Part shown: in pieces, positions 308 through 57,259 of the stretch
Layout: each line of letters begins with the position of its first letter
Position numbering within the stretch: position 1 is the stretch's first letter
Origin: Escarpia spicata
Lineage: Eukaryota > Annelida > Polychaeta > Sabellida > Siboglinidae
DNA: 64,000 nt
Direction of reading: 5' to 3'
Assembly: GCA_963995525.1 (NCBI GenBank)
Contig: OZ023214.1
Coordinates: forward strand, 57,365,823-57,429,822
Program-made: the position numbers and the translations under genes
Notes under the pieces: model-generated
Told to the model about the DNA's origin: nothing
The model's input: only the letters and a program-made list of their open reading frames with translations
Database searches by the model: none

Positions 308-390
308 GAAAACAGGCTGTAAGAGGAAGCTGAACACTTACATCCAGTTCCCCGAAGTACTCGACATGAGCGCCTACGTCAGTCGACCAG
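308..390 (+). CDS. USP48: USP48 exon w1 (USP domain)
   Basis: The acceptor TTCTTGTAG ends at 307; the first base completes an Arg codon. The translation starts [20 protein letters not shown], a recognisable USP48 catalytic-domain stretch. The end is chosen at CCAG/gcatgg, a GC donor. It has the phase needed by exon w2 (joining as DEEVLYDL) and keeps the spacing to the His box equal to vertebrate USP48. The GT alternative at 382 (A/gtcgac) is also in phase but loses three residues. The consensus-looking GT at 378 (TAC/gtcagt) is out of phase. The start is firm, the end less so. Confidence 0.8.
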
Positions 391-3300
391 GCATGGACCT
401 CATTCTCTCGTCTTTGTCCTGCTCACTGTATCACACATGTTACAAACTGTTTAATGAAACATGTCCGCTTTGTTACAGTGTTAAGTCAGTAAGAAGTATA
501 GTTTCATTTCACCATCAGCTAGAAACCTATCTTTTTAACACTGCACGTCCTCCTTAGCTTCTTAGCAATTCCATCCATCTGTAGACGACATTTGCTCTGT
601 ACCTCACAACACTTAATCCTTTGCATTTGTTGTGCCACTGAGCTTGGATATTGGCGCTGAAGAAGTCGTTCCTTTATTATTATTAAATTCAGTCACTGCT
701 GTATGAGAACAATATCTGGTGCAGTATTTATAATATATCAGACATCACAAAAGACAATGATGCAGGTAGGGACATATATTTGTGAACACAGAGTCATCTG
801 CAACTGATTGTGGAACTAGCTAATTAACAGCAGTGTTATTTCAAGTCGACGTCATCAGTCAGTTGAATAAAACTAAACAAAATAGTTTTATTAGAAGAAG
901 AGAAACTCTGTCACACCGAATGAGGTCATGATTATGAGTATTTCATATGTGCCTTCACGTACTTCTGCTATAGTTGTGCTGACAGTTAGGTCTGTGCCCT
1001 GCACTTGCCAGGAGATTCCCACCATTCTAAACAACATCAGGTGCTGCACAATAAAATCAATCTTCCACATTTCTACTGTCCAGAATAGCATTTAATAGTA
1101 TATGTGCAGTGCATTTGGAATTAAATTCCTAGCACCAAACATGTGGTCTGTTGGGTAGATGAGGAAGTCTTGTACGACCTGCATACTGTACTGATCCACC
1201 GTGGTCCCAGGACCTAACATGTGTTGTCTGTTGTGTAGATGAGGAAGTCTTGTACGACCTCCAGACTGTACTGATCCACCGTGGTCCCAGGACCTAACAT
1301 GTGTTGTCTGTTGTGTAGATGAGGAAGTCTTGTACGACCTCCAGACTGTACTGATCCACCGTGGTCCCAGGACCTAACATGTGTTGTCTGTTGTGTAGAT
1401 GAGGAAGTCTTGTACGACCTCCAGACTGTACTGATCCACCGTGGTCCCAGCACCTAACATGTGTTGTCTGTTGTGTAGATGAGGAAGTCTTGTACGACCT
1501 CCAGACTGTACTGATCCACCGTGGTCCCAGCACCTAACATGTGTTGTCTGTTGTGTAGATGAGGAAGTCTTGTACGACCTCCAGACTGTACTGATCCACC
1601 GTGGTCCCAGCACCTAGCATGTGTTGTCTGTTGTGTAGATGAGGAAGTCTTGTACGACCTCCAGACTGTACTGATCCACCGTGGTCCCAGCACCTAACAT
1701 GTGTCGTCTGTTTGTTGTGTAGATGAAGAAGTCTTGTACGACCTCCAGACTGTACTGATCCACCGTGGTCCCAGCACCTAACATGTGTTGTCTGTTGTGT
1801 AGATGAGGAAGTCTTGTACGACCTCCAGACTGTACTGATCCACCGTGGTCCCAGCACCTAACATGTGTTGTCTGTTGTGTAGATGAGGAAGTCTTGTACG
1901 ACCTTCAGACTGTACTGATCCACCGTGGTCCCAGCACCTAACATGTGTTGTCTGTTGTGTAGATGAGGAAGTCTTGTACGACCTCCAGACTGTACTGATC
2001 CACCGTGGTCCCAGCACCTAACATGTGTTGTCTGTTGTGTAGATGAGGAAGTCTTGTATGACCTCCAGGCCGTACTGATCCACTGTGGTCCCAGCACCTA
2101 ACATGTGTTGTCTGTTGTGTAGATGAGGAAGTCTTGTACGACCTCCAGACTGTACTGATCCACCGTGGTCCCAGCACTTAACATGTGTTGTCTGTTGTGT
2201 AGATGAGGAAGTCTTGTACGACCTCCAGACTGTACTGATCCACCGTGGTCCCAGCACCTAACATGTGTTGTCTGTTGTGTAGATGAGGAAGTCTTGTACG
2301 ACCTCCAGACTGTACTGATCCACCGTGGTCCCAGCACCTAACATGTGTTGTCTGTTGTGTAGATGAGGAAGTCTTGTACGACCTCCAGGCCGTACTGATC
2401 CACTGTGGTCCCAGCACCTAACATGTGTTGTCTGTTGTGTAGATGAGGAAGTCTTGTACGACCTCCAGACTGTACTGATCCACCGTGGTCCCAGCACCTA
2501 ACATGTGTCGTCTGTTTGTTGTGTAGATGAAGAAGTCTTGTACAACCTCCAGGCCGTACTGATCCACCGTGGTCCCAGCATCTAACATGTCTGGTTTGTT
2601 TGTTGTATAGATGAAGAAGTCTTGTACGACCTCCAGGCCGTACTGATCCACCGCGGTCCGAGTGCCAATAGTGGCCACTACATCTCCTACATCTGTGACT
2701 TCTCCTCCAACCTGTGGTACAAGTTCAATGATGAGGACATTGAGCAGATGGGAGGCAAAAACTTGCAGCTGGGAAACGAGGACGAATTACATTTGTCAGG
2801 TATGTGTGTGTGCGTGAATGCAAACATGCATGTGTGTTAGTGCATATGCATGTTATCTAAGCATTCAAGACTTGTATCATCAATCACGTGATGTTACAGT
2901 TTTATAAAGTCATTACATATGGATGTTTTAGAATAAAAATATATATCTATAAAAGTTACACATATGTGTGGCGGCCTAGGAAAACCAGTCGGAAATTGCC
3001 AGGCATAATTGCCCGTAAACGCATCATAAAGGTGATTTTGCATCATTGGGTTGATTTTGAGATTTCACTGCGATCTTTTAGCTAACATACTTATGTATAA
3101 GTTCACCAAGTAGTTTCCTGATTACCTTAGTGAAAGTTGTACTTTTTTATGTTTTTGAAACCATGAAGTTTGTTCTAAGTTGCAGCATTTTAGAATTAAA
3201 TGCGCACTATTTTTTGAACGCTTACAACCTAGGACAGAAGTTTCCATGTCCATATATGGCGTACCGTTCGAAAGCTATTTACGGCACGCAGTTCCCTAGC

Positions 3301-4878: not shown

Positions 4879-4909
<31 letters not shown>

Positions 4910-10900: not shown

Positions 10901-13900
10901 ATGTGTTGCTGGATGCACACAGGAATTTTTTTTACTTTTTGAGTTGTTGCCGTTTGAATATAGCGAATGCTCAAACTTGAAATGAGATTTAATATTTTCG
11001 ATATCACAGTAAAGATAATAATCTTATTTACAAGTATGTTGCTGGATGTAGCCAGGATTTGTCTTTAGTTTTTGAGTTATTGCCGTCTGAACATCGCAAG
11101 TGCTTAATCCTGCAATGTACACGTGGCAGCAGATATAATGCTAGGTTGAATATTTGCGATGTTCAAACGGTAATAACTCAAAATGTTAACACAATTCCTG
11201 TGTACATCCAGTGACAAATTTGTGGATAAGAATATTATTTTTATGGTGATATCAAAAAAATAAAAGTCTGATCATAATTTCATGTACAGTCTGAAAAAAC
11301 AGGCCGCACTGACCCTCGCCATGCTAAACGATAGGGCGTGCTCAGCAGCCCTGCCTGTGGTGACATCAGCAACATCTGACGGGCTGTGATATGCAAATGA
11401 CCACGTTTGAGCAGGTTCAGTGGCATGAGTTAGCAATGAGCAGGCTTTATACTTGGCACATTACTTGACAAGAGTATTAAGCTTATGTATACAAAGTTTC
11501 AAATACATGTAACATTTCATTTCACTTACCGTAGTCTTTAAGGCATATCTGTTATCATTATACTTAAAGTATTCAACAAGACTGATATATGTTATCATTA
11601 AAGGTAAATTATTCAACAATACTGATAACTGTTATCATTAAAGTATTCAACAATACTGATATATGTTATCATTAAAGTTAAAGTATTCAACAATGTTGAT
11701 ATTTGTTATCATTAAAATTAAAGTATTCAACAACGAACATAAAGTTGGCTTTTCATGCTTTGACAATTCTATTCACAACATACAATGTTTGATGTGCCTT
11801 GTATGTTTGTCTTCTAGGTTGCATCCAGACAAAGTGCCAAATGCCAAATGTATATCTAAAAAGGCTGTGAGTGTTTATTCCATGGTTCTTTAGAAATGAT
11901 TTCAAAACATGGATGTAAAACTACATGGAATTGGTTTCAAGTTATAATGGCTGAATATCTGGTTATCACATTTATCTTCTAAGTTAGTATTTCATAATAA
12001 TGGTACTACAAGTTGTTTTGCAGTTTCACTAGGTAAACGTCACACTTATCATCTCTTGTATGTTTGCAAGACACATAGCAGGAATTCATTTATCTGAACA
12101 TACTTGATTATTAGCAGTAAGTTAGTTTGCAATAATGCCATGTGATGTTGGTGTTTCAGTCAGATGTTATCTACACAACATATGGCGGAGGTCCCAGACT
12201 TCTCAGGTTTGGTTTTGGTTTCGTCTCTGGTACAATGCTGCCCGTTTGATCCAAGATGTTTCCACCATATCATTTCTAATCCTAGCAGAACTCACATTAG
12301 CCTGTTTCACCACCCACTACCCTGAATTGATCCCACCATGTTTACACTATTTGCCCATTCGAGTCTTGATCTTCTCCTCTAAATACCACACAGGGACACT
12401 GATTTTCCGTTTAAAAAAGGCACATCCTGTTTCAATTACGTTTCAAAATTCCATTTCAGAAAAAGGCAAATTCTGTTTCAAACAAAATAAAAGGCAAATT
12501 CCATTTCAAACGACGTATTTTCCGTTTCAGAAAAAAACAAATTCCGTTTCAAATGATGCATTTTCCATGTCAAATAACACATTTTCCATTTAAAAATGGC
12601 CTACTGCCTAAAGAAGCCCATTTCTGTTTAGAAAAGAAATATTTTATTTCAAAATTTACTTTGAAAAATAATACATTCTGTGAAATATCTAAAATATCAC
12701 AATGTTAGGATTACTGCATTCAAATAATCCTGTTTTTCTGTGTGGTTAACTTTTCTAACAAGATTTATTTGTGCAATATTTACAAAACGGTAACAACCAG
12801 ACATAATCAATTTAGATAATAATAATAATAAGATAACTTCTATTGCGCCTAAATCCTTGGAAACCAAGCTCAAATAATTCCTGTCACACAATAACGTATG
12901 TGTTGGTAATTCTACTCTTTCAACATTTACGGAGTTTCCGTTCGAAGATGCAAATCCTGTGTCAAAATGTTGATTACGTGGAATTCAATCCATTTTGCAT
13001 GATCGTGGAATTTCCGTTCCAAAAGTTCAATTCCATTTCAAAACCCGACTTCCGTTTTAAAACCCGATCGCAGAAAATCAGTATCCCTACATTCATGTGA
13101 TTGGCAGTTTCAAATTGATCCATTAACAAAGTAAACAAATTTGGTCAGGTATTTATTTATTAAGATAATTTTTAAATGCTATTTAATTCTGTGCAGTATT
13201 GACTTTTATAGTTGCTTTGGTTTCATGTCAGACTTGGTATGCCTGTTAAAATGCTGTATAATGGAGCATACTACATCCTCTTCTACCCCTTCCATGGTAT
13301 CACTGTATTGCCATGGTAACTGTAGACTTGGTATGTATGTTAAAATGCTGTATAATGGAGCATACTACATTCTCTTCTACCCCTTCCATGGTATCACTGT
13401 ATTGCCATGGTAACTGTAGACTATGTTAAAATGCGGTATAATGGAGCATACTACATCCTCTTCTACCCTTTCCATGGTATCACTGTATTGCCATGGTAAC
13501 TGTAGACTTGGTATGTCTGTTAAAATGCTGTATAATGGAGCATACTACTTCCTCTTCTACCCCTTCCATGGTATCACTGTATTGCCATGGTAACTGTAGA
13601 CTTGGTATGTCTGTTAAAATGCTGTATAATGGAGCATACTACATCCTCTTCTACCCCTTCCGTGGTATCACTGTATTGCCATGGTAACTGTAGACTATGT
13701 TAAAATGCGGTATAATGGAGCATACTACATCCTCTTCTACCCTTTCCATGGTATCACTGTATTGCCATGGTAACTGTAGACTTGGTATGCCTGTTAAAAT
13801 GCTGTATAATGGAGCATACTACATCCTCTTCTACCCCTTCCATGGTATCACTGTATTGCCATGGTAACTGTAGACTTGGTATGTATGTTAAAATGCTGTA

Positions 13901-16900
13901 TAATGGAGCATACTACATTCTCTTCTACCCCTTCCATGGTATCACTGTATTGCCATGGTAACTGTAGACTATGTTAAAATGCGGTATAATGGAGCATACT
14001 ACATCCTCTTCTACCCTTTCCATGGTATCACTGTATTGCCATGGTAACTGTAGACTTGGTATGCCTGTTAAAATGCTGTATAATGGAGCATACTACATCC
14101 TCTTCTACCCTTTCCATGGTATCACTGTATTGCCATGGTAACTGTAGACTTGGTATGTCTGTTAAAATGCTGTATAATGGAGCATACTACTTCCTCTTCT
14201 ACCCCTTCCATGGTATCACTGTATTGCCATGGTAACTGTAGACTTGGTATGTCTGTTAAAATGCTGTATAATGGAGCATACTACATCCTCTTCTACCCCT
14301 TCCATGGTATCACTGTATTGCCATGGTAACTGTAGACTTGGTATGTCTGTTAAAATGCTGTATAATGGAGCATACTACATCCTCTTCTACCCCTTCCATG
14401 GTATCACTGTATTGCCATGGTAACTGTAGACTATGTTAAAATGCGGTATAATGGAGCATACTACATCCTCTTCTACCCTTTCCATGGTATCACTGTATTG
14501 CCATGGTAACTGTAGACTTGGTATGCCTGTTAAAATGCTGTATAATGGAGCATACTACATCCTCTTCTACCCCTTCCATGGTATCACTGTATTGCCATGG
14601 TAACTGTAGACTTGGTATGTATGTTAAAATGCTGTATAATGGAGCATACTACATTCTCTTCTACCCCTTCCATGGTATCACTGTATTGCCATGGTAACTG
14701 TAGACTATGTTAAAATGCGGTATAATGGAGCATACTACATCCTCTTCTACCCTTTCCATGGTATCACTGTATTGCCATGGTAACTGTAGACTTGGTATGT
14801 CTGTTAAAATGCTGTATAATGGAGCATACTACTTCCTCTTCTACCCCTTCCATGGTATCACTGTATTGCCATGGTAACTGTAGACTTGGTATGTCTGTTA
14901 AAATGCTGTATAATGGAGCATACTACATCCTCTTCTACCCCTTCCGTGGTATCACTGTATTGCCATGGTAACTGTAGACTATGTTAAAATGCGGTATAAT
15001 GGAGCATACTACATCCTCTTCTACCCTTTCCATGGTATCACTGTATTGCCATGGTAACTGTAGACTTGGTATGTCTGTTAAAATGCTGTATAATGGAGCA
15101 TACTACATCCTCTTCTACCCCTTCCATGGTATCACTGTATTGCCATGGTAACTGTAGACTTGGTACGTATGTTAAAATGCTGTATAATGGAGCATACTAC
15201 ATCCTCTTCTACCCTTTCCATGGTATCACTGTATTGCCATGGTAACTGTAGACTTGGTACGTATGTTAAAATGCGGTATAATGGAGCATACTACATCCTC
15301 TTCTACCCTTTCCATGGTATCACTGTATTGCCATGGTAACTGTAGACTTGGTATGTCTGTTAAAATGCTGTATAATGGAGCATACTACATCCTCTTCTAC
15401 CCCTTCCGTGGTATCACTGTATTGCCATGGTAACTGTAGACTATGTTAAAATGCGGTATAATGGAGCATACTACATCCTCTTCTACCCTTTCCATGGTAT
15501 CACTGTATTGCCATGGTAACTGTAGACTTGGTATGTCTGTTAAAATGCTGTATAATGGAGCATACTACATCCTCTTCTACCCCTTCCATGGTATCACTGT
15601 ATTGCCATGGTAACTGTAGACTTGGTACGTATGTTAAAATGCTGTATAATGGAGCATACTACATCCTCTTCTACCCTTTCCATGGTATCACTGTATTGCC
15701 ATGGTAACTGTAGACTTGGTACGTATGTTAAAATGCGGTATAATGGAGCATACTACATCCTCTTCTACCCTTTCCATGGTATCACTGTATTGCCATGGTA
15801 ACTGTAGACTTGGTATGTCTGTTAAAATGCTGTATAATGGAGCATACTACATCCTCTTCTACCCCTTCCGTGGTATCACTGTATTGCCATGGTAACTGTA
15901 GACTATGTTAAAATGCGGTATAATGGAGCATACTACATCCTCTTCTACCCTTTCCATGGTATCACTGCATTGCCATGGTAACTGTAGACTTGGTATGTCT
16001 GTTAAAATGCTGTATAATGGAGCATACTACTTCCTCTTCTACCCCTTCCATGGTATCACTGTATTGCCATGGTAACTGTAGACTTGGTATGTCTGTTAAA
16101 ATGCTGTATAATGGAGCATACTACATCCTCTTCTACCCCTTCCGTGGTATCACTGTATTGCCATGGTAACTGTAGACTTGGTACGTATGTTAAAATGCTG
16201 TATAATGGAGCATACTACATCCTCTTCTACCCCTTTCATGGTATCACTGTATTGCCATGGTAACTGTAGACTTGGTACGTCTGTTAAAATGCTGTATAAT
16301 GGAGCATACTACATCCTCTTCTACCCCTTCCATGGTATCACTGTATTGCCATGGTAACTGTAGACTTGGTACGTCTGTTAAAATGCTGTATAATGGAGCA
16401 TACTACATCCTCTTCTACCCCTTCCATGGTATCACTGTATTGCTATGGTAACTGTAGACTTGGTATGTATGTTAAAATGCTGTGTAATGGAGCATACTAC
16501 ATCCTCTTCTACCCCTTCCATGGTATCACTGTATTGCCGTGGTAACTGTAGACTTGGTATGTCTGTTAAAATGCTGTATAATTTAGCATACTGTATCCTC
16601 TTCTACCCCTTCCATGGTATCACTGTATTGCCGTGGTAACTGTAGACTTGGTATGTCTGTTAAATGCTGTATAATTTAGCATACTGTATCCTCTTCTACC
16701 CCTTCCATGGTATCACTGTATTGCCGTAGTAACTGTAGCCTGCCTGGTCCACAGTGATGACCTGTGTCTGCACTGTGTGCGAGACCGGTGCAAGGTAGTG
16801 CGCACCAGAGCCAAGGTGGCACAGGACAGTAAACATATCACTGCTATTTTGAAGACCAAGCGCTGTCTACCACAGTAAGTGCAAACTTGGTTTCTCAGTT

Positions 16901-34900: not shown

Positions 34901-37900
34901 CAGAGCAGTCACATGACCAGTCTATACCACTCAAAGACAGCCCAATGGGTGGACCAGAGTAGTCACATGGACAGTCTATACCACTCGGAGACAGCTTAAT
35001 AGGTGGACCAGAGCAGTCACATGAACAGTCTATACCACTCGGAGACAAACAGCCTAATGGGTGGACCAGAGCAGTCACATGGACAGTCTATAGCACTCAG
35101 AGACAGCCTAATAGGTGGACCAGAGCAGTCACACGGACAGTCTGTAGTACTCAGAGACAGCATAATAGGTGGACCAGAGCAGTCACACGAACAGTCTATA
35201 GCACTCAGAGACAGACTAATAGGTGGACCAGAGCAGTCACATGGACAGTCTATAGCACTCAGAGACAGACTAATAGGTGGACCAGAGTAGTCAAATGAAC
35301 AGTCTATACCACTCAGAGACTGCCTAATAGGTGGACCAGAGCAGTCACATGAACAGTCTATAGCACTCGGAGACAGACTAATAGGTGGACCAGAGTAGTC
35401 GCATGAACAGTCTATACCACTCAGAGACAGCCTAATATGTGGACCAGAGCAGTCACATGAACAGTCTATAGCACTCAGAGACAGACTAATAGGTGGACCA
35501 GAGCAGTCACATGGACAGTCTATAGCACTCAGAGACAGACTAATAGGTGGACCAGAGTAGTCACATGAACAGTCTATACCACTCAGAGACAGACTAATAG
35601 GTGGACCAGAGTAGTCACGTGAACAGTCTATAGCACTCAGAGACAGCCTAATAGGTGGACCAGAGCAGTCACACGAACAGTCTATAGCACTCAGAGACAG
35701 ACTAATAGGTGGACCAGAGCAGTCACATGGACAGTCTATAGCACTCAGAGACAGACTAATAGGTGGACCAGAGTAGTCACATGAACAGTCTATAGCACTC
35801 AGAGACAGCAAAATGGGTGAACCTGAGTAGTCACGTGGACAGTCTATAGCACTCAGAGACAGCCTAATGGGTGGACCAGAGCAGTCATGTGGACAGTCTA
35901 TAGCACTCAGAGACAGCCTAATGGGTGGACCAGAGCAGTCACATGGACAGTCTATAGCACTCAGAGACAGACAGCCTAATGGGTGGACCAGAGCAGTCAC
36001 ATGGACAGTCTATAGCACTCAGAGACAGACAGCCTAATGGGTGGACCAGAGTAGTCACATGGACAGTCTATAGAACTCAGAGACAGACAGCCTAATTGGT
36101 GGACCAGAGTAGTCATATGGACAGTCTATAGAACTCAGAGACAGACAGCCTGATGGGTGGATCAGAGTAGTCACATGGACAGTCTATAGCACTCAGAGAC
36201 AGACAGCCTAATGGGTGGACCAGAGTAGTCACATGGACAGTCTATAGCACTCAGAGACAGCCTAATGGGTGGACCAGAGTAGTCACATGGACAGTCTATA
36301 GCACTCAGAGACAGACTAATGGGTGGACCAGAGCAGTCACATGGACAGTCTATAGCACTCAGAGACAGCCTAATGGGTGGACCAGAGCAGTCACATGGAC
36401 AGTCTATAGCACTCAGAGACAGCCTAATGGGTGGACCAGAGCAGTCACACGGACAGTCTATAGCACTCAGAGACAGCCTAATGGGTGGACCAGAGCAGTC
36501 ACATGGACAGTCTATAGCACTCAGAGACAGCCTAATAGGTGGACCAGAGCAGTCACACGGACAGTCTATAGCACTCAGAGACAGCCTAATGGGTGGACCA
36601 GAGCAGTCACATGGACAGTCTATAGCACTTAGAGACAGCCTAATAGGTGGACCAGAGCAGTCACACGGACAGTCTATAGCACTCAGAGACAGCCTAATGG
36701 GTGGACCAGAGCAGTCACATGGACAGTCTATAGCACTCAGAGACAGCCTAATGGGTGGACCAGAGCAGTCACATGGACAGTCTATAGCACTCAGAGACAG
36801 CCTAATGGGTGGACCAGAGCAGTCACATGGGCAGTCTATAGCACTCAGAGACAGCCTAATGGGTGGACCAGAGCAGTCACATGGAGAGTCTATAGCACTC
36901 AGAGACAGCCTAATGGGTGGACCAGAGCAGTCACACGGACAGTCTATAGCACTCAGAGACAGCGTAATGGGTGGACCAGAGTAGTCACATGGGCAGTCTA
37001 TAGCACTCAGAGACAGACAGCCTAATGGGTGGACCAGAGCAGTCACACGCACTGTCTATAGCACTCAGAGACAGCATAATGGGTGGACCTGAGTAGTCAC
37101 ATGGGCAGTCTATAGCACTCAGAGACAGACAGCCTAATTGGTGGACCAGAGTAGTCACATGGACAGTCTATAGCACTCAGAGACAGACTAATAGGTGGAC
37201 CAGAGTAGTCATGTGGACCAGAGCAGTCACGTGGACAGTCTATAGCACTCAGAGACAGCCTAATGGGTGGACCAGAGACAGCCTAATGGGTGGACCAGAG
37301 CAGTCACATGGACAGTCTATAGCACTCAGAGACAGCCTAATAGGTGGACCAGAGCAGTCACGTGGACAGTCTATAGCACTCAGAGACAGCCTAATGGGTG
37401 GACCAGAGCAGTCACATGGACAGTCTATACCACTCAGAGACAGCCTAATAGGTGGACCAGAGACAGCCTAATGGGTGGACCAGAGCAGTTACGTGGACAG
37501 TCTATAGCACTCGGAGACAGCCTAATGGGTGGACCAGAGCAGTCACGTGGACAGTCTATAGCACTCAGAGACAGCCTAATAGGTGGACCAAAGCAGTCAC
37601 ATGGACAGTCTATACCACTCAGAGACAGCCTAATGGGTGGACCAGAGCAGTCACACGAACAGTCTATAGCACTCAGAGACAGACTAATAGGTGGACCAGA
37701 GTAGTCACATGAACAGTCTATACCACATAGAGACAGCCTAATAGGTGGACCAGAGCAGTCACATCAACAGTCTATACCACTCAAAGACAGCCCAATGGGT
37801 GGACCAGAGTAGTCACATGGACAGTCTATACCACTCAGAGACAGCGTAATAGGTGGACCAGAGCAGTCACATGAACAGTCTATACCACTCAAAGACAGCC

Positions 37901-40900
37901 CAATGGGTGGACCAGAGTAGTCACATGGACAGTCTATACCACTCAGAGACAGCGTAATAGGTGGACCAGAGCAGTCACATGAACAGTCTATACCACTCAA
38001 AGACAGCCCAATGGGTGGACCAGAGCAGTCACACGGTCAGTCTGTAGTGCTCAGAGACAGCCTAATAGGTGGACCAGAGCAGTCACGTGGACAGTCTATA
38101 GCACTCGGAGACAGCCTAATGGGTGGACCAGAGCAGTCACATGGACAGTCTATAGCACTCAGAGACAGCCTAATAGGTGGACCAGAGCAGTCACATGAAC
38201 AGTCTATAGCACTCAGAGACAGCCTAATAGGTGGACCAGAGCAGTCACACGGACAGTCTATGGCACTCAGAGACAGACTAATAGGTGGACCAGAGCAGTC
38301 ACATGGACAGTCTATAGCACTCAGAGACAGACTAATAGGTGGACCAGAGTAGTCACATGAACAGTCTATACCACTCAGAGACAGACTAATAGGTGGACCA
38401 GAGTAGTCACATGAACAGTCTATAGCACTCAGAGACAGCCTAATAGGTGGACCAAAGCAGTCACACGAACAGTCTATTGCACTCAGAGACAGACTAATAG
38501 GTGGACCAGAGTAGTCACATGAACAGTCTATACCACTCAGAGACAGCCTAATAGGTGGACCAGAGCAGTCACATGAAGAGTCTATAGCACTCAGAGACAG
38601 ACTAATAGGTGGACCAGAGTAGTCACATGAACAGTCTATACCACTTAGAGACAGCCTAATAGGTGGACCAGAGCAGTCACATGACCAGTCTATACCACTC
38701 AAAGACAGCCCAATGGGTGGACCAGAGTAGTCACATGGACAGTCTATACCACTCGGAGACAGCTTAATAGGTGGACCAGAGCAGTCACATGGGCAGTCTA
38801 TAGCACTCAGAGACAGCCTTATGGGTGGACCAGAGCAGTCACATGGAGAGTCTATAGCACTCAGAGACAGCCTAATGGGTGGACCAGAGCAGTCACACGG
38901 ACAGTCTATAGCACTCAGAGACAGCGTAATGGGTGGACCAGAGTAGTCACATGGGCAGTCTATAGCACTCAGAGACAGACAGCCTAATGGGTGGACCAGA
39001 GCAGTCACACGCACTGTCTATAGCACTCAGAGACAGCATAATGGGTGGACCTGAGTAGTCACATGGGCAGTCTATAGCACTCAGAGACAGACAGCCTAAT
39101 TGGTGGACCAGAGTAGTCACATGGACAGTCTATAGCACTCAGAGACAGACTAATAGGTGGACCAGAGTAGTCATGTGGACAGCCTAATAGGTGGACCAGA
39201 GCAGTCACGTGGACAGTCTATAGCACTCAGAGACAGCCTAATGGGTGGACCAGAGACAGCCTAATGGGTGGACCAGAGCAGTCACATGGACAGTCTATAG
39301 CACTCAGAGACAGCCTAATAGGTGGACCAGAGCAGTCACACGGACAGTCTGTAGTACTCAGAGACAGCATAATAGGTGGACCAGAGCAGTCACACGAACA
39401 GTCTATAGCACTCAGAGACAGACTAATAGGTGGACCAGAGCAGTCACATGGACAGTCTATAGCACTCAGAGACAGACTAATAGGTGGACCAGAGTAGTCA
39501 AATGAACAGTCTATACCACTCAGAGACTGCCTAATAGGTGGACCAGAGCAGTCACATGAACAGTCTATAGCACTCGGAGACAGACTAATAGGTGGACCAG
39601 AGTAGTCGCATGAACAGTCTATACCACTCAGAGACAGCCTAATATGTGGACCAGAGCAGTCACATGAACAGTCTATAGCACTCAGAGACAGACTAATAGG
39701 TGGACCAGAGCAGTCACATGGACAGTCTATAGCACTCAGAGACAGACTAATAGGTGGACCAGAGTAGTCACATGAACAGTCTATACCACTCAGAGACAGA
39801 CTAATAGGTGGACCAGAGTAGTCACATGAACAGTCTATAGCACTCAGAGACAGCCTAATAGGTGGACCAAAGCAGTCACACGAACAGTCTATTGCACTCA
39901 GAGACAGACTAATAGGTGGACCAGAGTAGTCACATGAACAGTCTATACCACTCAGAGACAGCCTAATAGGTGGACCAGAGCAGTCACATGAAGAGTCTAT
40001 AGCACTCAGAGACAGACTAATAGGTGGACCAGAGTAGTCACATGAACAGTCTATACCACTTAGAGACAGCCTAATAGGTGGACCAGAGCAGTCACATGGA
40101 CAGTCTATAGCACTCAGAGACAGCCTAATGGGTGGACCAGAGCAGTCACATGGGCAGTCTATAGCACTCAGAGACAGCCTAATGGGTGGACCAGAGCAGT
40201 CACATGGAGAGTCTATAGCACTCAGAGACAGCCTAATGGGTGGACCAGAGCAGTCACACGGACAGTCTATAGCACTCAGAGACAGCGTAATGGGTGGACC
40301 AGAGTAGTCACATGGGCAGTCTATAGCACTCAGAGACAGACAGCCTAATGGGTGGACCAGAGCAGTCACACGCACTGTCTATAGCACTCAGAGACAGCAT
40401 AATGGGTGGACCTGAGTAGTCACATGGGCAGTCTATAGCACTCAGAGACAGACAGCCTAATTGGTGGACCAGAGTAGTCACATGGACAGTCTATAGCACT
40501 CAGAGACAGACTAATAGGTGGACCAGAGTAGTCATGTGGACAGCCTAATAGGTGGACCAGAGCAGTCACGTGGACAGTCTATAGCACTCAGAGACAGCCT
40601 AATGGGTGGACCAGAGACAGCCTAATGGGTGGACCAGAGCAGTCACATGGACAGTCTATAGCACTCAGAGACAGCCTAATAGGTGGACCAGAGCAGTCAC
40701 GTGGACAGTCTATAGCACTCAGAGACAGCCTAATGGGTGGACCAGAGCAGTCACATGGACAGTCTATACCACTCAGAGACAGCCTAATAGGTGGACCAGA
40801 GACAGCCTAATGGGTGGACCAGAGCAGTTACGTGGACAGTCTATAGCACTCGGAGACAGCCTAATGGGTGGACCAGAGCAGTCACGTGGACAGTCTATAG

Positions 40901-43900
40901 CACTCAGAGACAGCCTAATAGGTGGACCAAAGCAGTCACATGGACAGTCTATACCACTCAGAGACAGCCTAATGGGTGGACCAGAGCAGTCACACGAACA
41001 GTCTATAGCACTCAGAGACAGACTAATAGGTGGACCAGAGTAGTCACATGAACAGTCTATACCACATAGAGACAGCCTAATAGGTGGACCAGAGCAGTCA
41101 CATCAACAGTCTATACCACTCAAAGACAGCCCAATGGGTGGACCAGAGTAGTCACATGGACAGTCTATACCACTCAGAGACAGCGTAATAGGTGGACCAG
41201 AGCAGTCACATGAACAGTCTATACCACTCAAAGACAGCCCAATGGGTGGACCAGAGCAGTCACACGGTCAGTCTGTAGTGCTCAGAGACAGCCTAATAGG
41301 TGGACCAGAGCAGTCACGTGGACAGTCTATAGCACTCGGAGACAGCCTAATGGGTGGACCAGAGCAGTCACATGGACAGTCTATAGCACTCAGAGACAGC
41401 CTAATAGGTGGACCAGAGCAGTCACATGAACAGTCTATAGCACTCAGAGACAGCCTAATAGGTGGACCAGAGCAGTCACACGGACAGTCTATGGCACTCA
41501 GAGACAGACTAATAGGTGGACCAGAGCAGTCACATGGACAGTCTATAGCACTCAGAGACAGACTAATAGGTGGACCAGAGTAGTCACATGAACAGTCTAT
41601 ACCACTCAGAGACAGACTAATAGGTGGACCAGAGTAGTCACATGAACAGTCTATAGCACTCAGAGACAGCCTAATAGGTGGACCAAAGCAGTCACACGAA
41701 CAGTCTATTGCACTCAGAGACAGACTAATAGGTGGACCAGAGTAGTCACATGAACAGTCTATACCACTCAGAGACAGCCTAATAGGTGGACCAGAGCAGT
41801 CACATGAAGAGTCTATAGCACTCAGAGACAGACTAATAGGTGGACCAGAGTAGTCACATGAACAGTCTATACCACTTAGAGACAGCCTAATAGGTGGACC
41901 AGAGCAGTCACATGACCAGTCTATACCACTCAAAGACAGCCCAATGGGTGGACCAGAGTAGTCACATGGACAGTCTATACCACTCGGAGACAGCTTAATA
42001 GGTGGACCAGAGCAGTCACATGGGCAGTCTATAGCACTCAGAGACAGCCTTATGGGTGGACCAGAGCAGTCACATGGAGAGTCTATAGCACTCAGAGACA
42101 GCCTAATGGGTGGACCAGAGCAGTCACACGGACAGTCTATAGCACTCAGAGACAGCGTAATGGGTGGACCAGAGTAGTCACATGGGCAGTCTATAGCACT
42201 CAGAGACAGACAGCCTAATGGGTGGACCAGAGCAGTCACACGCACTGTCTATAGCACTCAGAGACAGCATAATGGGTGGACCTGAGTAGTCACATGGGCA
42301 GTCTATAGCACTCAGAGACAGACAGCCTAATTGGTGGACCAGAGTAGTCACATGGACAGTCTATAGCACTCAGAGACAGACTAATAGGTGGACCAGAGTA
42401 GTCATGTGGACAGCCTAATAGGTGGACCAGAGCAGTCACGTGGACAGTCTATAGCACTCAGAGACAGCCTAATGGGTGGACCAGAGACAGCCTAATGGGT
42501 GGACCAGAGCAGTCACATGGACAGTCTATAGCACTCAGAGACAGCCTAATAGGTGGACCAGAGCAGTCACACGGACAGTCTGTAGTACTCAGAGACAGCA
42601 TAATAGGTGGACCAGAGCAGTCACACGAACAGTCTATAGCACTCAGAGACAGACTAATAGGTGGACCAGAGCAGTCACATGGACAGTCTATAGCACTCAG
42701 AGACAGACTAATAGGTGGACCAGAGTAGTCAAATGAACAGTCTATACCACTCAGAGACTGCCTAATAGGTGGACCAGAGCAGTCACATGAACAGTCTATA
42801 GCACTCGGAGACAGACTAATAGGTGGACCAGAGTAGTCGCATGAACAGTCTATACCACTCAGAGACAGCCTAATATGTGGACCAGAGCAGTCACATGAAC
42901 AGTCTATAGCACTCAGAGACAGACTAATAGGTGGACCAGAGCAGTCACATGGACAGTCTATAGCACTCAGAGACAGACTAATAGGTGGACCAGAGTAGTC
43001 ACATGAACAGTCTATACCACTCAGAGACAGACTAATAGGTGGACCAGAGTAGTCACATGAACAGTCTATAGCACTCAGAGACAGCCTAATAGGTGGACCA
43101 GAGCAGTCACACGAACAGTCTATTGCACTCAGAGACAGACTAATAGGTGGACCAGAGTAGTCACATGAACAGTCTATACCACTCAGAGACACCCTAATAG
43201 GTGGACCAGAGCAGTCACACGAACCGTCTATTGCACTCAGAGACAGACTAATAGGTGGACCAGAGTAGTCACATGAACAGTCTATACCACTCAGAGATAG
43301 CCTAATAGGTGGACCAGAGCAGTCACATGAACAGTCTATAGCACTCAGAGACAGACTAATAGGTGGACCAGAGTAGTCACATGAACAGTCTATACCACTT
43401 AGAGACAGCCTAATAGGTGGACCAGAGCAGTCACGTGGACAGTCTATAGCACTCGGAGACAGCCTAATGGGTGGACCAGAGCAGTCACATGGACAGTCTA
43501 TAGCACTCAGAGACAGCCTAATAGGTGGACCAGAGCAGTCACATGAACAGTCTATAGCACTCAGAGACAGCCTAATAGGTGGACTAGAGCAGTCACACGG
43601 ACAGTCTATGGCACTCAGAGACAGACTAATAGGTGGACCAGAGCAGTCACATGGACAGTCTATAGCACTCAGAGACAGACTAATTGGTGGACCAGAGTAG
43701 TCACATGAACAGTCTATACCACTCAGAGACAGACTAATAGGTGGACCAGAGTAGTCACATGAACAGTCTATAGCACTCAGAGACAGCCTAATAGGTGGAC
43801 CAAAGCAGTCACACGAACAGTCTATTGCACTCAGAGACAGACTAATAGGTGGACCAGAGTAGTCACATGAACAGTCTATACCACTCAGAGACAGCCTAAT

Positions 43901-46900
43901 AGGTAGACCAGAGCAGTCACATGAAGAGTCTATAGCACTCAGAGACAGACTAATAGGTGGACCAGAGTAGTCACATGAACAGTCTATACCACTTAGAGAC
44001 AGCCTAATAGGTGGACCAGAGCAGTCACATGACCAGTCTATACCACTCAAAGACAGCCCAATGGGTGGACCAGAGTAGTCACATGGACAGTCTATACCAC
44101 TCGGAGACAGCTTAATAGGTGGACCAGAGCAGTCACATGAACAGTCTATACCACTCGGAGACAAACAGCCTAATGGGTGGACCAGAGCAGTCACATGGAC
44201 AGTCTATAGCACTCAGAGACAGCCTAATAGGTGGACCAGAGCAGTCACACGGACAATCTGTAGTACTCAGAGACAGCATAATAGGTGGACCAGAGCAGTC
44301 ACACGAACAGTCTATAGCACTCAGAGACAGACTAATAGGTGGACCAGAGCAGTCACATGGACAGTCTATAGCACTCAGAGACAGACTAATAGGTGGACCA
44401 GAGTAGTCAAATGAACAGTCTATACCACTCAGAGACTGCCTAATATGTGGACCAGAGCAGTCACATGAACAGTCTATAGCACTCAGAGACAGACTAATAG
44501 GTGGACCAGAGCAGTCACATGGACAGTCTATAGCACTCAGAGACAGACTAATAGGTGGACCAGAGTAGTCACATGAACAGTCTATACCACTCAGAGACAG
44601 ACTAATAGGTGGACCAGAGTAGTCACACGAACAGTCTATACCACTCAGAGACAGCCTAATATGTGGACCAGAGCAGTCACATGAACAGTCTATAGCACTC
44701 AGAGACAGACTAATAGGTGGACCAGAGCAGTCACACGGACAGTCTATAGCACTCAGAGACAGACTAATAGGTGGACCAGAGTAGTCACATGAACAGTCTA
44801 TAGCACTCAGAGACAGCCTAATAGGTGGACCAGAGCAGTCACACGAACAGTCTATTGCACTCAGAGACAGACTAATAGGTGGACCAGAGCAGTCACGTGG
44901 ACAGTCTATAGCATTCAGAGACAGACTAATAGGTGGACCAGAGTAGTCACATGAACAGTCTATACCACTCAGAGACAGCCTAATAGGTGGACCAGAGCAG
45001 TCACATGAAAAGTCTATAGCACTCAGAGACAGACTAATAGGTGGACCAGAGTAGTCACATGAACAGTTTATACCACTTAGAGACAGCCTAATAGGTGGAC
45101 CAGAGCAGTCACATGAACAGTCTATACCACTCAAAGACAGCCCAATGGGTGGACCAGAGTAGTCACATGGACAGTCTATACCACTCAGAGACAGCCTAAT
45201 AGGTGGACCTGAGCAGTCACGTGGACAGTCTATAGCACTCGGAGACAGCCTAATGGGTGGACCTGAGTAGTCACGTGGACAGTCTATAGCACTCAGAGAC
45301 AGCCTAATGAGTGGACCAGAGTAGTCACATGGACAGTCTATACCAATCAGAGACAGCCTAATGGGTGGACCAGAGTAGTCACATGGACAGTCTATGGCAC
45401 GCTGAGACAGCCCAGTGGGTGGACCAGAGTAGTCACACGGACAGTCTATAGCACTCGGAGGCAGACAGCCTAATGGGTGGACCAGAGTAGTCACATGGAC
45501 AGTCTATACCAATCAGAGACAGCCTAATGGGTGGACCAGAGTAGTCACATGGACAGTCTATGGCACGCTGAGACAGCCCAGTGGATGGACCAGAGTAGTC
45601 ACACGGACAGTCTATAGCACTCGGAGGCAGACAGCCTAATGGGTGGACCAGAGTAGTCACATGGACAGTCTATAGCACTCAGAGACAGCCTAATGGGTGG
45701 ATCAGAGCAGTCACATGAACAGTCTATAGCACTCAGAGACAGCCTAATGGCTAGACCAGAGTCAGCCTAATGGGTGGACCTGAGTAGTCACATGGACAGT
45801 CTATAGCACTCAGAGACAGACAACCTAATGGGTGGACCAGAGCAGTCACATGAACAGTCTATAGCACTCAGAGACAGACAGCCTAATGGGTGGACCAGAG
45901 CAGTCACATGAACAGTCTATAGCACTCAGAGACAGACAGCCTAATGGGTGGACCAGAGCAGTCACATGAACAGTCTATAGCACTCAGAGACAGACAGCCT
46001 AATGGGTTGACCAGAGCAGTCACATGAACAGTCTATAGCACTCAGAGGCAGCCTAATGGGTGGACCAGAGCAGTCACATGGACAGTCTATAGCACTTAGA
46101 GACAGCCTAATAGGTTGACCCGAGCAGCCACATGGACAGTCTATAGCACTCAGAGACAGCCTAATAGGTTGACCTGAGTAGTCACATGGACAGTCTATAG
46201 CACTCAGAGACAGCCTAATGGGTGGGCCAGAGCAGTCACGTGGACAGTCTATAGCACTCGGAGACAGCCTAATAGGTTGACCTGAGTAGTCACATGGACA
46301 GTCTATAGCACTCAGAGACAGCCTAATGGGTGGGCCAGAGCAGTCTCGTGGACAGTCTATAGCACTCAGAGACAGCCTAATAGGTTGACCTGAGTAGTCA
46401 CATGGACAGTCTATAGCACTCAGAGACAGCCTAATGGGTGGGCCAGAGCAGTCACGTGGACAGTCTATAGCACTCAGAGACAGCCTAATAGGTTGACCTG
46501 AGTAGTCACATGGACAGTCTATAGCACTCAGAGACAGCCTAATGGGTGGGCCAGAGCAGTCACGTGGACAGTCTATAGCACTCAGAGACAGGCTAATGGG
46601 TGGACCAGAGCAGTCACGTGGACAGTCTATAGCACTCAGAGACAGGCTAATGGGTGGACCAGAGCAGTCACGTGGACAGTCTATAGCACTCAGAGACAGG
46701 CTAATGGGTGGACCAGAGCAGTCACGTGGACAGTCTATAGCACTCAGAGACAGCCTAATGGGTGGGCCAGAGCAGTCTCGTGGACAGTCTATAGCACTCA
46801 GAGACAGGCTAATGGGTGGACCAGAGCAGTCTCGTGGACAGTCTATAGCACTCAGAGACAGGCTAATGGGTGGACCAGAGCAGTCACGTGGATAGTCTAT

Positions 46901-49900
46901 AGCACTCAGAGACAGGCTAATGGGTGGACCAGAGCAGTCTCGTGGACAGTCTATAGCACTCAGAGACAGCCTAATGGGTGGGCCAGAGCAGTCACGTGGA
47001 CAGTCTATAGCACTCAGAGACAGGCTAATGGGTGGACCAGAGCAGTCACGTGGACAGTCTATAGCACTCAGAGACAGGCTAATGGGTGGACCAGAGCAGT
47101 CACGTGGACAGTCTATAGCACTCAGAGACAGACGAATAGGTTGACCAGAGCAGTCACATGGACAGTCTATAGCACAACCAGTACAAAAAACAGTTTACCA
47201 AACAAGAAAACAAGTATAGTTCTACCATATGCATAATTAAAATAAATAAAGTATATATAAGTGAAGTAAGTTCAACATGACTAATTTGGTCTGTCCTTTT
47301 TAAACACAATTGTGGTTCATTGGAACTCATTGCAGCTTTCAAGACTCGTAGAAGAGGTGTATATATATATATATACATATATTTATATATACATGTATAT
47401 ATATACATACATACATATATATATATACTACATAAAAAAAATTTGCATTTCATAATCCTGCATTTGCATACATAATGGTGAAGAAGCAATGATTTTGTAA
47501 TAACTAACAGTGTGAATGAATGATATCACAGAGAGCCGAAGAAGGTGCCGCCAGTGACACACGTGGAGAACCGCAATCTGCTATGTCAACATGACGGCTT
47601 CCTGTACCGGCCAGAGCTGATAGGAGCAGATGAGATGGACGACAGGTCTGGACTAGTCTCACGCCCTCTACACTCTATTCACATTGCCAGTAATGAAACA
47701 GTCGTCACATGTCAGTCAGTGGGGACACCTTGCAAACTGGGTCACTTGTAATAATTGTTCATGTCATTGTGTGCACATTAGTGCGTGCATGGTGGGTGGG
47801 TGGGTATGTATGTACACTTGATATAAATGTACTAAATACAATTACTGTATCATTTGTTATGCCTGATGTGTAGATCATTGTCTGATAGACCTATCGCAAT
47901 GACACGTGTAGAACATGTATTGACCCCCTGTCTCCCACCTACAGGGCTGTGTATACATTGACCCCCTACCCCCCCTACAGGGCTGTGTATACATTAATCT
48001 CCTACTTTCCCCTACAGGGCTGTGTATACATTGACCCCGTGTCTCCCCCCTACAGAGCTGTGTATGCATTGACCCACTACCTCCCCCCCTACAGGGCTGT
48101 GTGTATATTGACCCCCTGTCTCCCGCCTACAGGGCTGTGTATTCATTTACCCCTACCTCCCCCTAGAGGGCTGTGTATACATTGACCCCCTGTCTCCCCC
48201 CTACAGGGCTGTGTATACATTGACCCCTACCTCCCCCAAAAGGGCTGTGTATGCATTGACCCCCTGTCTCCCCCCCACAAGACTGTATGCATTGACCCAC
48301 TACCTCCCCCCTACAGGGCTGTGTATATATTTACTCTCTGTCTCCCCCCTACAGGGCTGTGTATACATTGACCCCTGTCTCCCCGCTGCAGGGCTGTGTA
48401 TGCATTGATCCCCTGTCTCCCCCCTACAGGGCTGTGTATACATTGACACCTGTCTCCCCCCTACAGGGCTGTGTATACATTAATCTCCTACCTCCCCCTA
48501 CAGGACTGTATACACATTGACCTCCTGTCTCACCCTACAGGGCTGTGTATACATTGACCCTCTGTCTCCCCCTTCAGGGCTGTGTATGCATTGACCGTGT
48601 ACCTCCCCCAACAGGGCTGTATATACATTGACCCTCTACCCCCCCCCCCCCTACAGGGCTGTGTACACATTGACCCCCTGTCTCCCGCCTACAGGGCTGT
48701 GTATATATTGACCCCCTGTCTCCCCCCTACAGGGCTGTGTATACATTGACCCCCTGTCTCCTCCTGCAGGGCTGTGTATACATTGACATCCTGTTTCACA
48801 CTACAGGGCTGTTTATACATTGACCCTCTGTCCCCCCCCCCTACAGGGCTGTGTACACATTGACCCTTTGTCGCCCCCCTACAGGGCTGTGTATACATTG
48901 ACCACCTATCTCCCCCCCTACAGGGCTGTGTATACATTGACCCCCTGTCTCCCCCCTACAGGGTTGTGTATACATTGACCCCCTGTCTCCCCCTACAGGG
49001 CTGTGTATACATTGACCCCCTGTCTCCCCCTACAGGGTTGTATATACATTGACCCCCTGTCTCCCCCTACAGGGTTGTATATACATTGACCCCCTGTCTC
49101 CCCCTACAGGGCTGTGTACATCTGGCCTGGGGAATGGAAGATCCTGCGCAAGTATGTGACGGTGGACAAGGAGTTGCTTGTGCAATGTGTCAAGGCGTGT
49201 GATGGCCATGTCACCTTCATTGCCACACCAGGTGAGGTGCTGTCGGTTGACACAACCAAATCGTGTCATACAGACAGCGAAGACATTTTTTAGTGACTAC
49301 ATTCTACGAACCACTGTAAACACAAATCACAGAAACTATATCACTTTATTAATGAACCGGAAAACAAGAGGACTTTACATTGATTTTAAATAAATATAAA
49401 ACCAACTTTGTATGTCATCCCAGGACTTGTGGTTTGATTAGTTGCTAGAATCATGATGTGTCCTGTTGGTAGACCTGGACATACAGTCATTTAAACGGGA
49501 TCAGTGCATCATGTGTTGTTGTAGACTTGACACATGTATTAAATAAAATAAAATTTATTGAACTCACTACAGTACATAAAGATACAAATGAAATTAAGAC
49601 AAATCCTATATAATAGCAGAATGAGAAGAACAAGGGAAGGACATTGTATAATGTTACACTCCCTGTTTACCTGATGCCCTGTCATAATGATGTCACTGGG
49701 AGATATTAGACATTGTATAATGTTACACTCCTTGTTTACATGATGCCCTGTCATAAAGATGTAACTGGGAGAAATTAGACATTGTATAATGTTACACTCC
49801 CTGTTTACCTGATGCCCTGTCGTAATGATGTACTGGGAGACATTAGACATTGTATAATGTTACACTCCCTGTTTACCTGATGCCCTGTTGTAATGATGTA

Positions 49901-52900
49901 CTGGGAGACATAGACATTATATAATGTTACACTCCCTGTTTACATGATGCCCTGTCGTAATGATGTACTGGGAGACATTAGACATTGTATAATGTTACAC
50001 TCCCTGTTTACCTGATGCCCTGTCGTAATGATGTACTGGGAGACATAGACATTATATAATGTTACACTCCCTGTTTACATGATGCCCTGTCGTAATGATG
50101 TACTGGGAGACATTAGACATTGTATAATGTTACACTCCCTGTTTACCTGATGCCCTGTCGTAATGATGTAATGGGAGACATTAGACATTGTATAATGTTA
50201 CACTCCCTGTTTACCTGATGCCCTGTCGTAATGATGTACTGGGAGACATTAGACATTGTATAATGTTACACTCCCTGTTTACATGATGCCCTGTCATAAT
50301 GATGTACTGGGAGACATTAGACATTGTATAATGTTACACTCCCTGTTTACCTGATGCCCTGTCGTAATGATGTACTGGGAGACATTAGACATTGTATATG
50401 TGGCCTGTGTTGTAGTATTCAGGTTATGATTTTCAACAAACCTTATTTGGCAGATGTCATGATCCTTTATTTTCAAGACATTTACAGGTGACGATAAAAT
50501 AACAGAACTTGTTTATGTGAGCTTCTATTGTTTGTAGTAATGTTATTCCTTAATAAACACAGAAATTATCTGGTTAATTACAACATCACACCACAAAATT
50601 GTGTATTTGCAGTCGAGATGGTGAAGAGAATCTAGAGTTACTATGTATGTTACTAGAATGGGAAGGTGTAATGTTGCCACTGTTCCCCAGAGGTGTGTGA
50701 GCAATGCTGTCAGGCCCGAGTCACCGAGGAGTTTGAGTTGCGGCTCACGTACAGTGCTGCCACCATCTACGTGCGCAAAGTGACCAATAACTTGCTGAAG
50801 TTGGACGATCAGACAACGTCAAGTAGTCCCATTGAGCTGCTGGAGAGCGAGGACGACTGTTTCATCGTGAAGCCAGACTGTGGCGCTCTCACACAGGTAC
50901 ATCGATGCCTCATGTACCTTTCATACAATTTGAAAGGTGCTACATTCACCAGTGCAGATGACGGTCTTCCCAAGTATTTCTAAATTACATTTTTATTAAT
51001 GTAAATCATGTAAAAAGTGTTTTGCTTCAACACAAGTTAGGTAAAACATCCCCAAGTTATTGGTTGGCAGTCCTTGCAACCTTGAATTAGTCATAGAATA
51101 TGCATAACTTTATGAACAATTAATTTACGTCCAACTAACAGGTGGTATGAACCATAAAAATGGTAATTAACAACCTTTATTATTTTATTTACCTTTTTCA
51201 GAAAATTGAAGGGGTTACTTTTTCTGAAGGATTATAAAAAAAACTTGGATACATAAGCTAGCTTGATTTTAATTAGATGGTATGGAAAGCCAAAATTATT
51301 TAATTTTCAGGTTGATAGTAGAAACAAATAGCTTCTACTATCAACCTAGAAAATATAGGCAGACAAACTCTTTGCACGCTTGCTAATTAAACTGTGTAGA
51401 AATAACCGGCAGATATTTAGGGGCATCATAGGAGCTGCATAAAAACATTGTTTCAAAACACCTATTATCGGGACATCAAGATAAACAATTATTAACTAAC
51501 AAGCAATTTACACTCGGTCTATATCTTGTTTTTCTGTACAATGATAGCACTTCTTGAAATGGTTATTGAACATAAACTGCATGTGTGTTTCTAAAGCAAC
51601 TTATATATATTGCCCCTTCCTGTTGCAGTGTATTTGGCTGTATTTTTTTTCATGTTGGTGTTGTTGACCCCTATTGATGTTGTTGACCCCCTGTTGGTGT
51701 TGTTGACCCCCTGTTGGTGTTGTTGACCCCCTGTTGGTGTTGTTGACTCCCTGTTGGTGTTGTTGACCCCCTGTTGGTGTTGTTGACCTCCTGTTTATGT
51801 TGTTGATCCCCTGTTCATGTTGTTGACCCCCTCTTGGTGTTGTTTACCCCCTCTTAGTGTTATTGACCCCCTCTTGATGTTGCTAGAATGGCAAGCGGAA
51901 GAAAGAGGCCAACAGCCTGGTGGTGCCAGACAAGGTATCGCGTTTGGAGCCGGCCGGCTCTGGCACTGGGCAGGTGCCACGCCGGAGCACACGACACCAC
52001 CGCATACGGGGGGAGAAGGAGGTGACTGTCAGCTCCACACAGACACTACGCACCCTCAAGCTGGAGGTGAGGGGTGAACACATGCACTAGGTGGAGTCGG
52101 TTGAACACACTCACTAGATGGCCTCAGGTGAACACACATACTAGATGGCCTCGGGTGAACACACACACTAGATGGCCTCAGGTGAACACACATACTAGAT
52201 GGCCTCGGGTGAACGCACACACTAAGTGGCCTCGGGTGGACACATGTACTAGATGGCCTCGGGTGAACACACATACTAAATGGCCTCGGGTGAACACACG
52301 CACTAGATGTCCTCAGGTGAACACACACCAGGTGGCCTTGGGTGAACACATGCACTAGATGGTCTCGGGTGAACACACACACACACATTAGGTGGCCTCG
52401 GGTGAACACACACGCTAGGTGGCCTCGGGTGAACACACGCACTAGATTGCCTCGGGTGAACACACACACTAGTTGGACTCTAGTGAACACACGCACTAGA
52501 TGGCCTCGGGTGGAATACATGCACTAAATGGTCTCGGGTGAACACACGCACTAGATTGCCTCGGTGAACACACGCACTAGGTGGCCTCGGGTGAACACAC
52601 GCACTAGGTGGCCTCGGGTGAACACACACACTGGATGGCCTCGGGTGAACACACGCACTAGATGGCCTTGGGTCATTCTAAAGACATTATCCTGTATACT
52701 ATGTAATGTTTGCAATGGCAAATAGAAAACATGGTTTTGGCAGGCATGAGAGTTATCTGTTCTCACTGGCTGTCACAACAGCAACATACAATATTAATTT
52801 AATTAGATACGTTTAATAATATTGTAGATGACCTATACAGGCCAACAATGCCACCTATTTCGTTATTATTTATTTATTAGTATGTATTTATAATGCGCTA

Positions 52901-57259: not shown

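Follow-up and report, generated by a model that had tools for sequence, protein, structure and literature searches.

Minisatellite arrays at the splice junctions of six introns of a USP48 gene, very probably from a siboglinid annelid

Analysis of a genomic DNA stretch of 64,000 nucleotides (the window) showed that six of the 13 intronic minisatellite arrays of a USP48 gene span a splice junction or sit at most 5 bp from one (introns 1, 10, 11, 14, 16, and 17). Donors (introns 10, 11, and 17) as well as acceptors (introns 1, 14, and 16) were affected, and the position of the arrays within this gene is non-random. The arrays are probably mirage-type minisatellites of a siboglinid annelid, which would have been founded by genomic tandem duplications at exon-intron borders and have grown inside the introns.

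The plus strand of the window carries about the last 70% of USP48, and its start matches residue 308 of the Lamellibrachia satsuma protein. A total of 20 exons and 19 introns were placed between positions 308 and 57260 (plus strand) on the basis of the reading frame, GT-AG sites (one GC-AG, in intron 1), and homologues. The joined exons gave an open frame of 762 residues with no extra exon and with Pfam UCH and DUSP matches. The exons that adjoin the arrays discussed below, and the first exon of the window, are as follows (a slash marks an exon-intron border).

308..390, plus strand: exon 1 of the window, an internal exon; donor GC (CCAG/GCATGG); the joined protein matches the L. satsuma model P0117 across the junction
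2611..2799, plus strand: exon 2; the last copy of the intron 1 array makes up the first 49 bp of this exon
16755..16874, plus strand: exon 9 (gene model); join length the same as in homologues, by eye
22126..22214, plus strand: exon 10 (gene model)
24479..24634, plus strand: exon 11 (gene model); the start may be 24487
49110..49231, plus strand: exon 15 (gene model)
51887..52066, plus strand: exon 17 (gene model)

Intron 1 is a GC-AG intron with an apparent GC donor at 390-391, and the L. satsuma protein shows the same join of exons there. Among 124 proteins aligning to the same 245 USP48 residues, the 552-residue L. satsuma model had the top identity (221 of 245 residues, 90%, exons 1 to 7). 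The second-best match over at least 200 residues was Lingula (55%); five other matches reached 55.8 to 60%, but over about 120 to 131 residues only, while Branchiostoma and Paralvinella showed 53% and 52% over the stretch of about 245 residues. The identity of 90% with L. satsuma, against 55% for the next full-length match, indicates that the host lineage is very probably a siboglinid annelid; on protein identity, amphioxus was rejected as the source. The L. satsuma model ends with KKAVSI, and positions 11858-11873 of the window read KKA/GTGAGT at the exon 7 donor; the L. satsuma annotation is thus probably truncated soon after the start of intron 7. A search for the second half of L. satsuma USP48 gave 11 matches, none named as siboglinid (three carried no name), and no copies of exon 2 were found in plasmid and viral collections.

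Tandem Repeats Finder (TRF) gave 78 rows on the window; merging these by hand left 32 arrays, of which 27 overlap introns. A period of at least 10 and at least 5 copies defined the analysed set of 13 intronic arrays; the nearest excluded arrays had 4.9 copies (at 84 bp from the acceptor of intron 6) and 4.6 copies (in intron 8). Together the 13 arrays cover 28,317 bases, of which a few dozen lie in exons, compared with 54,662 intron bases. The gaps to the closest junction were 0, 0, 0, 0, 4, 5, 16, 82, 292, 312, 540, 549, and 968 bp. The eight arrays closest to a junction are listed below; the six junction arrays have 11 to 32 copies (TRF).

1127..2659, plus strand: intron 1 array; 80-bp unit, 19 copies; gap 0 (TRF and gene model)
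13230..16738, plus strand: intron 8 array; 38 copies of a 94-bp unit; stops 16 bp short of the 3' splice site
22215..22949, plus strand: intron 10 array; 31-bp unit, 23.7 copies; begins at the first intron base, gap 0
24627..25012, plus strand: intron 11 array; 20-bp unit, 19 copies; spans the 5' splice site with 8 bp of exon 11
32112..47175, plus strand: giant intron 13 array of about 15 kb; 54-bp unit; separated from the 5' splice site by 82 bp
47919..49118, plus strand: intron 14 array; 37-38-bp unit, 32 copies; spans the 3' splice site with 9 bp of exon 15
51653..51882, plus strand: intron 16 array; 11.6 copies of a 20-bp unit; stops 4 bp short of the 3' splice site
52072..52673, plus strand: intron 17 array; 27-bp unit, 22 copies; begins 5 bp after the 5' splice site

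An earlier note, made from the sequence alone, had placed arrays at the splice sites of introns 1, 10, 11, 14, 16, and 17, and the measured gaps (0, 0, 0, 0, 4, and 5 bp, respectively) bear this out. Its distances of 17 and 80 bp for introns 8 and 13 came out at 16 and 82 bp, and its unit lengths agreed with TRF (80, 31, 20, 37, 20, and 27 bp for the six introns; 94 and 54 bp for introns 8 and 13). Its picture of the gene was correct for the six of 13 intronic arrays that abut or span junctions, but it omitted arrays away from splice sites: seven of the 13 have a gap of more than 5 bp, and five of these lie 292 to 968 bp from a junction. Arrays away from splice sites were found in introns 9 (62-bp unit), 15 (68 bp), 18 (46 bp), and 19 (47 bp, 3 copies), and as second arrays in introns 10 (57 bp) and 11 (54 bp); in some of them the copy number is lower.

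The unit of intron 1 consists of about 33 bp of the intron end, the 3' splice site (TAG), and the first 47 bp or so of exon 2. The array spans the 3' splice site, reaching 49 bp into exon 2, with 18 upstream junction copies followed by the authentic border as the last. At the break, the exon reads GGTCCGAG and the outer array flank TTCCTAGCACC, a short imperfect match that would be compatible with microhomology. The unit of intron 11 joins ACTACATG (exon end) to GTCAGTCACATG (donor), while that of intron 14 joins a pyrimidine tract and a CTACAG acceptor to GGCTGTGTA of exon 15, the copies reading CCCCCCTACAG/GGCTGTGTA. The units of introns 1, 11, and 14 thus hold part of the exon, as had been claimed, with exon, junction, and intron in genomic order, head to tail.

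Exon sequence was not copied in the other three junction arrays (introns 10, 16, and 17). The intron 10 unit starts with GTAGGTG, a copy of the donor; the intron 16 unit is without the AG, and the acceptor AG is not copied in register; the intron 17 unit holds a weak donor-like GGGTGAAC (CGG/GTGAAC) out of register with the true donor. The claim that the units of five introns carry a copy of the adjoining splice site was therefore clear for introns 1, 10, 11, and 14 but not for intron 17. In the intron 8 array, the authentic acceptor with its AG is not copied in register. Two stretches of the giant intron 13 array, of 1,996 bp and 1,337 bp, recur exactly within it (at offsets of 3,231 and 6,999, respectively), owing either to a kilobase duplication in the very recent past or to an error of assembly.

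Units that hold exon and intron across an unspliced border indicate that genomic DNA was duplicated and that spliced RNA was not the template. Reverse splicing, which the earlier note had offered among its mechanisms, or another RNA-mediated process that put splice-site copies into introns, draws no support beyond the location of the arrays; the contiguous, head-to-tail exon and intron sequence over unspliced junctions in introns 1, 11, and 14 counts against it, genomic duplication suffices for these units, and we consider such a process extremely improbable.

The preferred course, duplication followed by growth, would begin with a genomic tandem duplication of 20 to about 80 bp that ends in or at an exon-intron border, as the unit content shows for introns 1, 11, and 14 and as is presumed for introns 10, 16, and 17. 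The transcript would stay correct, with only the copy on the side of the exon body used and the others turning intronic; here the intact spliced frame was observed, and use of the exon-proximal copy is presumed. The array inside the intron would then grow at little cost and be homogenised by slippage or unequal exchange, as copy number and copy identity suggest. Finally, the border copy would remain under selection, pinning one edge of the array at the junction. Counting against this course are the seven intronic arrays away from junctions, as numerous as the junction arrays; the absence of exon sequence from the units of introns 10, 16, and 17; the copies in introns 11 and 14 that equal the authentic site; and the lack of spanning duplications at other junctions.

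The excess of arrays at junctions was evaluated under several null models. With arrays placed randomly in their own introns (the strict null), 0.19 arrays were expected within 5 bp of a junction against 6 seen (P 6.4e-9). The expectation rose to 0.52 (P 4.6e-6) with the founding unit placed anywhere in the gene and to 1.03 (P 2.3e-4) when every array was reduced to a single unit, against the same 6. The strict null was weaker at a limit of 82 bp (8 seen, 2.6 expected, P 3.8e-4). When only array edges were measured, which puts the intron 1 array at a distance of 49 bp, 5 arrays lay within 10 bp against 0.34, 0.41, and 0.53 expected for sets of 13, 18, and 26 arrays, respectively. Selection that merely tolerates growth outside the exon, another suggestion of the earlier note, would on its own predict no preference of borders over mid-intron positions, the contrast examined with the strict null. 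All these P values overstate genome-wide significance because the gene was picked by eye as striking. A minisatellite-rich genome will hold some gene with several splice-site arrays by chance, and the most lenient P of 2.3e-4 could come from a genome with about 24,000 gene models, the number reported for Ridgeia (PMC9921365). Against such a chance effect stand the strict null and the several amphioxus genes reported to have the same anatomy (PMC3087553, PMC3902484), and we regard it as unlikely.

Short duplications spanning junctions were absent (score of at least 11) at all 31 USP48 junctions with no array within 60 bp, while 9.0% of 600 intron control positions reached this score (mean 7.33, vs 5.19 at junctions). 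The test sees spanning repeats (scores 44, 30, and 39 for introns 1, 11, and 14) and is blind to abutting arrays (6, 4, and 8 for introns 10, 16, and 17).

Comparison of the array units with each other gave 4 of 272 strand-pair tests at the floor P of 0.005, with 1.4 expected. The units are unrelated, as the earlier note had stated, except for a 12-base exact match, TTGACCCCCTGT, between the units of introns 14 and 16, and a common sequence or motif was rejected. A common DNA fold was likewise rejected: the eight units folded had no common structure, with z of -3.4 (intron 14), -2.1 (intron 15, a non-junction array), -1.9 (intron 17), and 0.6 to 0.9 (introns 1, 11, 13, and 16), and none for intron 10. 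Hidden splice-site ancestry of the distant arrays was examined with 17 units against 80 bp around up to 38 junctions, the own array being masked, and was rejected, since the junctions of the own intron were not outstanding. Own-intron junctions ranked 1 of 38 for the second intron 11 array (an unremarkable score of 17), 1 for the intron 17 unit (its own donor, score 15), and 2 for the intron 8 unit (its donor, score 20); for the remaining units they ranked 5 or lower. Polarity along the array was seen in intron 1, where resemblance to the authentic copy increased towards the exon (rho -0.55, P 0.022, n=17), and was absent in introns 10, 11, 14, 16, and 17 (P 0.15 to 0.76), with the outermost array unit used in place of the authentic copy for introns 16 and 17.

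These results bear on a mutational hot spot, in which transcription, nucleosome phasing, or splicing factors would promote breaks or polymerase switching at borders. Donors and acceptors are both affected by units of unrelated sequence and length, and the eight folded units share no property, so that what matters seems to be where an array lies and not what its unit is. The 31 other junctions with no spanning duplication speak against a strong hot spot at every junction. Such duplications could, however, be concealed by selection against mis-splicing, and abutting arrays would be invisible. Arrays away from junctions also bear no trace of the splice sites of their own intron, a further point against a hot spot. 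We hold a hot spot to be a serious possibility, somewhat short of probable. The recurrent process at exon edges that the earlier note had proposed stands in so far as several arrays with unrelated units were founded there, at donors and acceptors; a process at every edge was not seen (spanning duplications at 0 of 31 junctions).

Alternatively, arrays could be founded anywhere in introns, and those tied to splice sites could persist longer, with one edge kept by selection, leaving old arrays enriched at junctions. Such survival bias is weakly favoured by divergence: the junction arrays (introns 1, 8, 10, 11, 14, 16, and 17, with intron 13 left out) had a median identity to the consensus of 0.930, compared with 0.987 for five other intronic arrays (P 0.034). 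The difference was not significant when the three arrays outside the gene were added (P 0.12), the groups differ in unit length, and shrinkage to one copy should, by reasoning, be equally easy at junctions. We consider survival bias possible but rather doubtful. For the border preference we lean towards mutation being mildly biased to exon edges in a minisatellite-prone genome, with selection filtering out arrays that cause mis-splicing.

Splice sites were scored with a matrix built from the other USP48 sites, on copies within the mismatch limit of the pattern (fewer than the TRF totals), and intron 11 was restricted to the 6 matched copies bearing GT. The authentic site outscored all matched copies in introns 1 (0 of 17 reached its score), 10 (0 of 18), and 17 (0 of 11). 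Copies scored as high as the authentic site in introns 11 (4 of 6) and 14 (9 of 20), so site strength alone is insufficient to explain the choice. AG/GT was kept in all matched copies of introns 1 (17), 10 (18), and 14 (20). Computed use of a copy would give a premature stop in 61 of 61 cases tested (17, 20, 18, and 6 in introns 1, 14, 10, and 11, respectively), and the array copies must therefore be strictly ignored. From established splicing knowledge, they are likely ignored through exon definition, since the true exon is paired with a second site at the proper distance. The USP48 arrays are natural tests of how the spliceosome selects one among many near-identical sites.

A function of the arrays, with repeated splice signals or pyrimidine-rich units aiding splicing or regulating USP48 through intron size or decoys, would fit the pyrimidine-rich unit of intron 14 next to its acceptor and the decoys of introns 11 and 14 that equal the authentic site. 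The premature stops from all 61 decoys, the lack of a common motif among units, and the equal involvement of donors and acceptors make it very unlikely.

Other repeats were observed in and beyond the gene. Intron 9 holds a decayed non-LTR retrotransposon (17460-21840), with an endonuclease-like piece (E 7.9e-4, below the Pfam cut-off) and an RVT_1 reverse transcriptase piece (E 2.9e-13); the 62-bp minisatellite of this intron (6 copies, 21202-21576) sits at the end of the reverse transcriptase reading frame. Introns 5 (6970-9300) and 11 (25220-27560) contain related repeat-like stretches, seen by eye, that start near 'cctttggccgaagg' and are probably a shared mobile element. On the 3' side of USP48, TRF found the following.

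58664-61531 and 62553-63315: three minisatellites with units of 32, 47, and 35 bp, the first two joined directly at 59108

The earlier note knew of no named system of this kind. Tandem repeats spanning exon-intron borders have been named mirages, and an amphioxus report describes them in Adh3 and globin genes, with an unclear mechanism, intact splicing, and length instability, and discusses them as a possible general cephalochordate phenomenon (PMC3087553); a second report adds PGBD5 and cites troponin C (PMC3902484). Amphioxus mirages (Adh3, globins BflGb6 and BflGb9, and PGBD5) and the USP48 arrays are alike in having border repeats at either intron end, an intact gene product (here an intact joined frame), many copies with AG/GT signals, and similar unit sizes, the amphioxus units being 10 to about 160 bp long (PMC3087553, PMC3902484). 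Structurally, the USP48 arrays are of this known kind, and the probable annelid host is unexpected. Mirages have been described in cephalochordates, whereas USP48 here comes from a probable annelid (90% identity to L. satsuma vs 53% to Branchiostoma). AG/GT signals are kept in many units (introns 1, 10, and 14). The arrays of introns 1, 11, and 14 span the border, while those of introns 8, 10, 13, 16, and 17 (gaps of 16, 0, 82, 4, and 5 bp) are splice-site-adjacent arrays only. Six introns of one gene are affected in USP48, three of the six arrays strictly spanning the border and the others abutting it, and the copy numbers of 11 to 32 exceed the 2 to 7 quoted for the amphioxus globin and PGBD5 genes.

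Among the literature matches listed, including the best 10 of 2,945, with most subscription journals outside the scope, no case of mirages or border minisatellites outside amphioxus was found, nor is such a pattern mentioned in the passages on tandem repeats or introns of the Ridgeia genome paper (PMC9921365). Intron gain by tandem duplication resembles USP48 in being founded by a genomic tandem duplication across a border; there, one duplication creates a new intron, whereas in USP48 many copies enlarge an existing one. No new intron lies between duplicated copies in USP48, each of the six arrays adjoining a single authentic junction. The human 31-bp CBS repeat is a VNTR across a donor site at a single locus. 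We tentatively propose, as a conjecture that may well fail, that exon-intron borders recurrently give birth to minisatellites in animals as far apart as cephalochordates and annelids, by a common process linked to transcription or splicing at exon edges; where active, this process would be a main way in which introns grow and a source of spare splice sites. With three strict mirages and three abutting arrays found in a single gene of a probable annelid, the question becomes general, and testable in minisatellite-rich long-read genomes.
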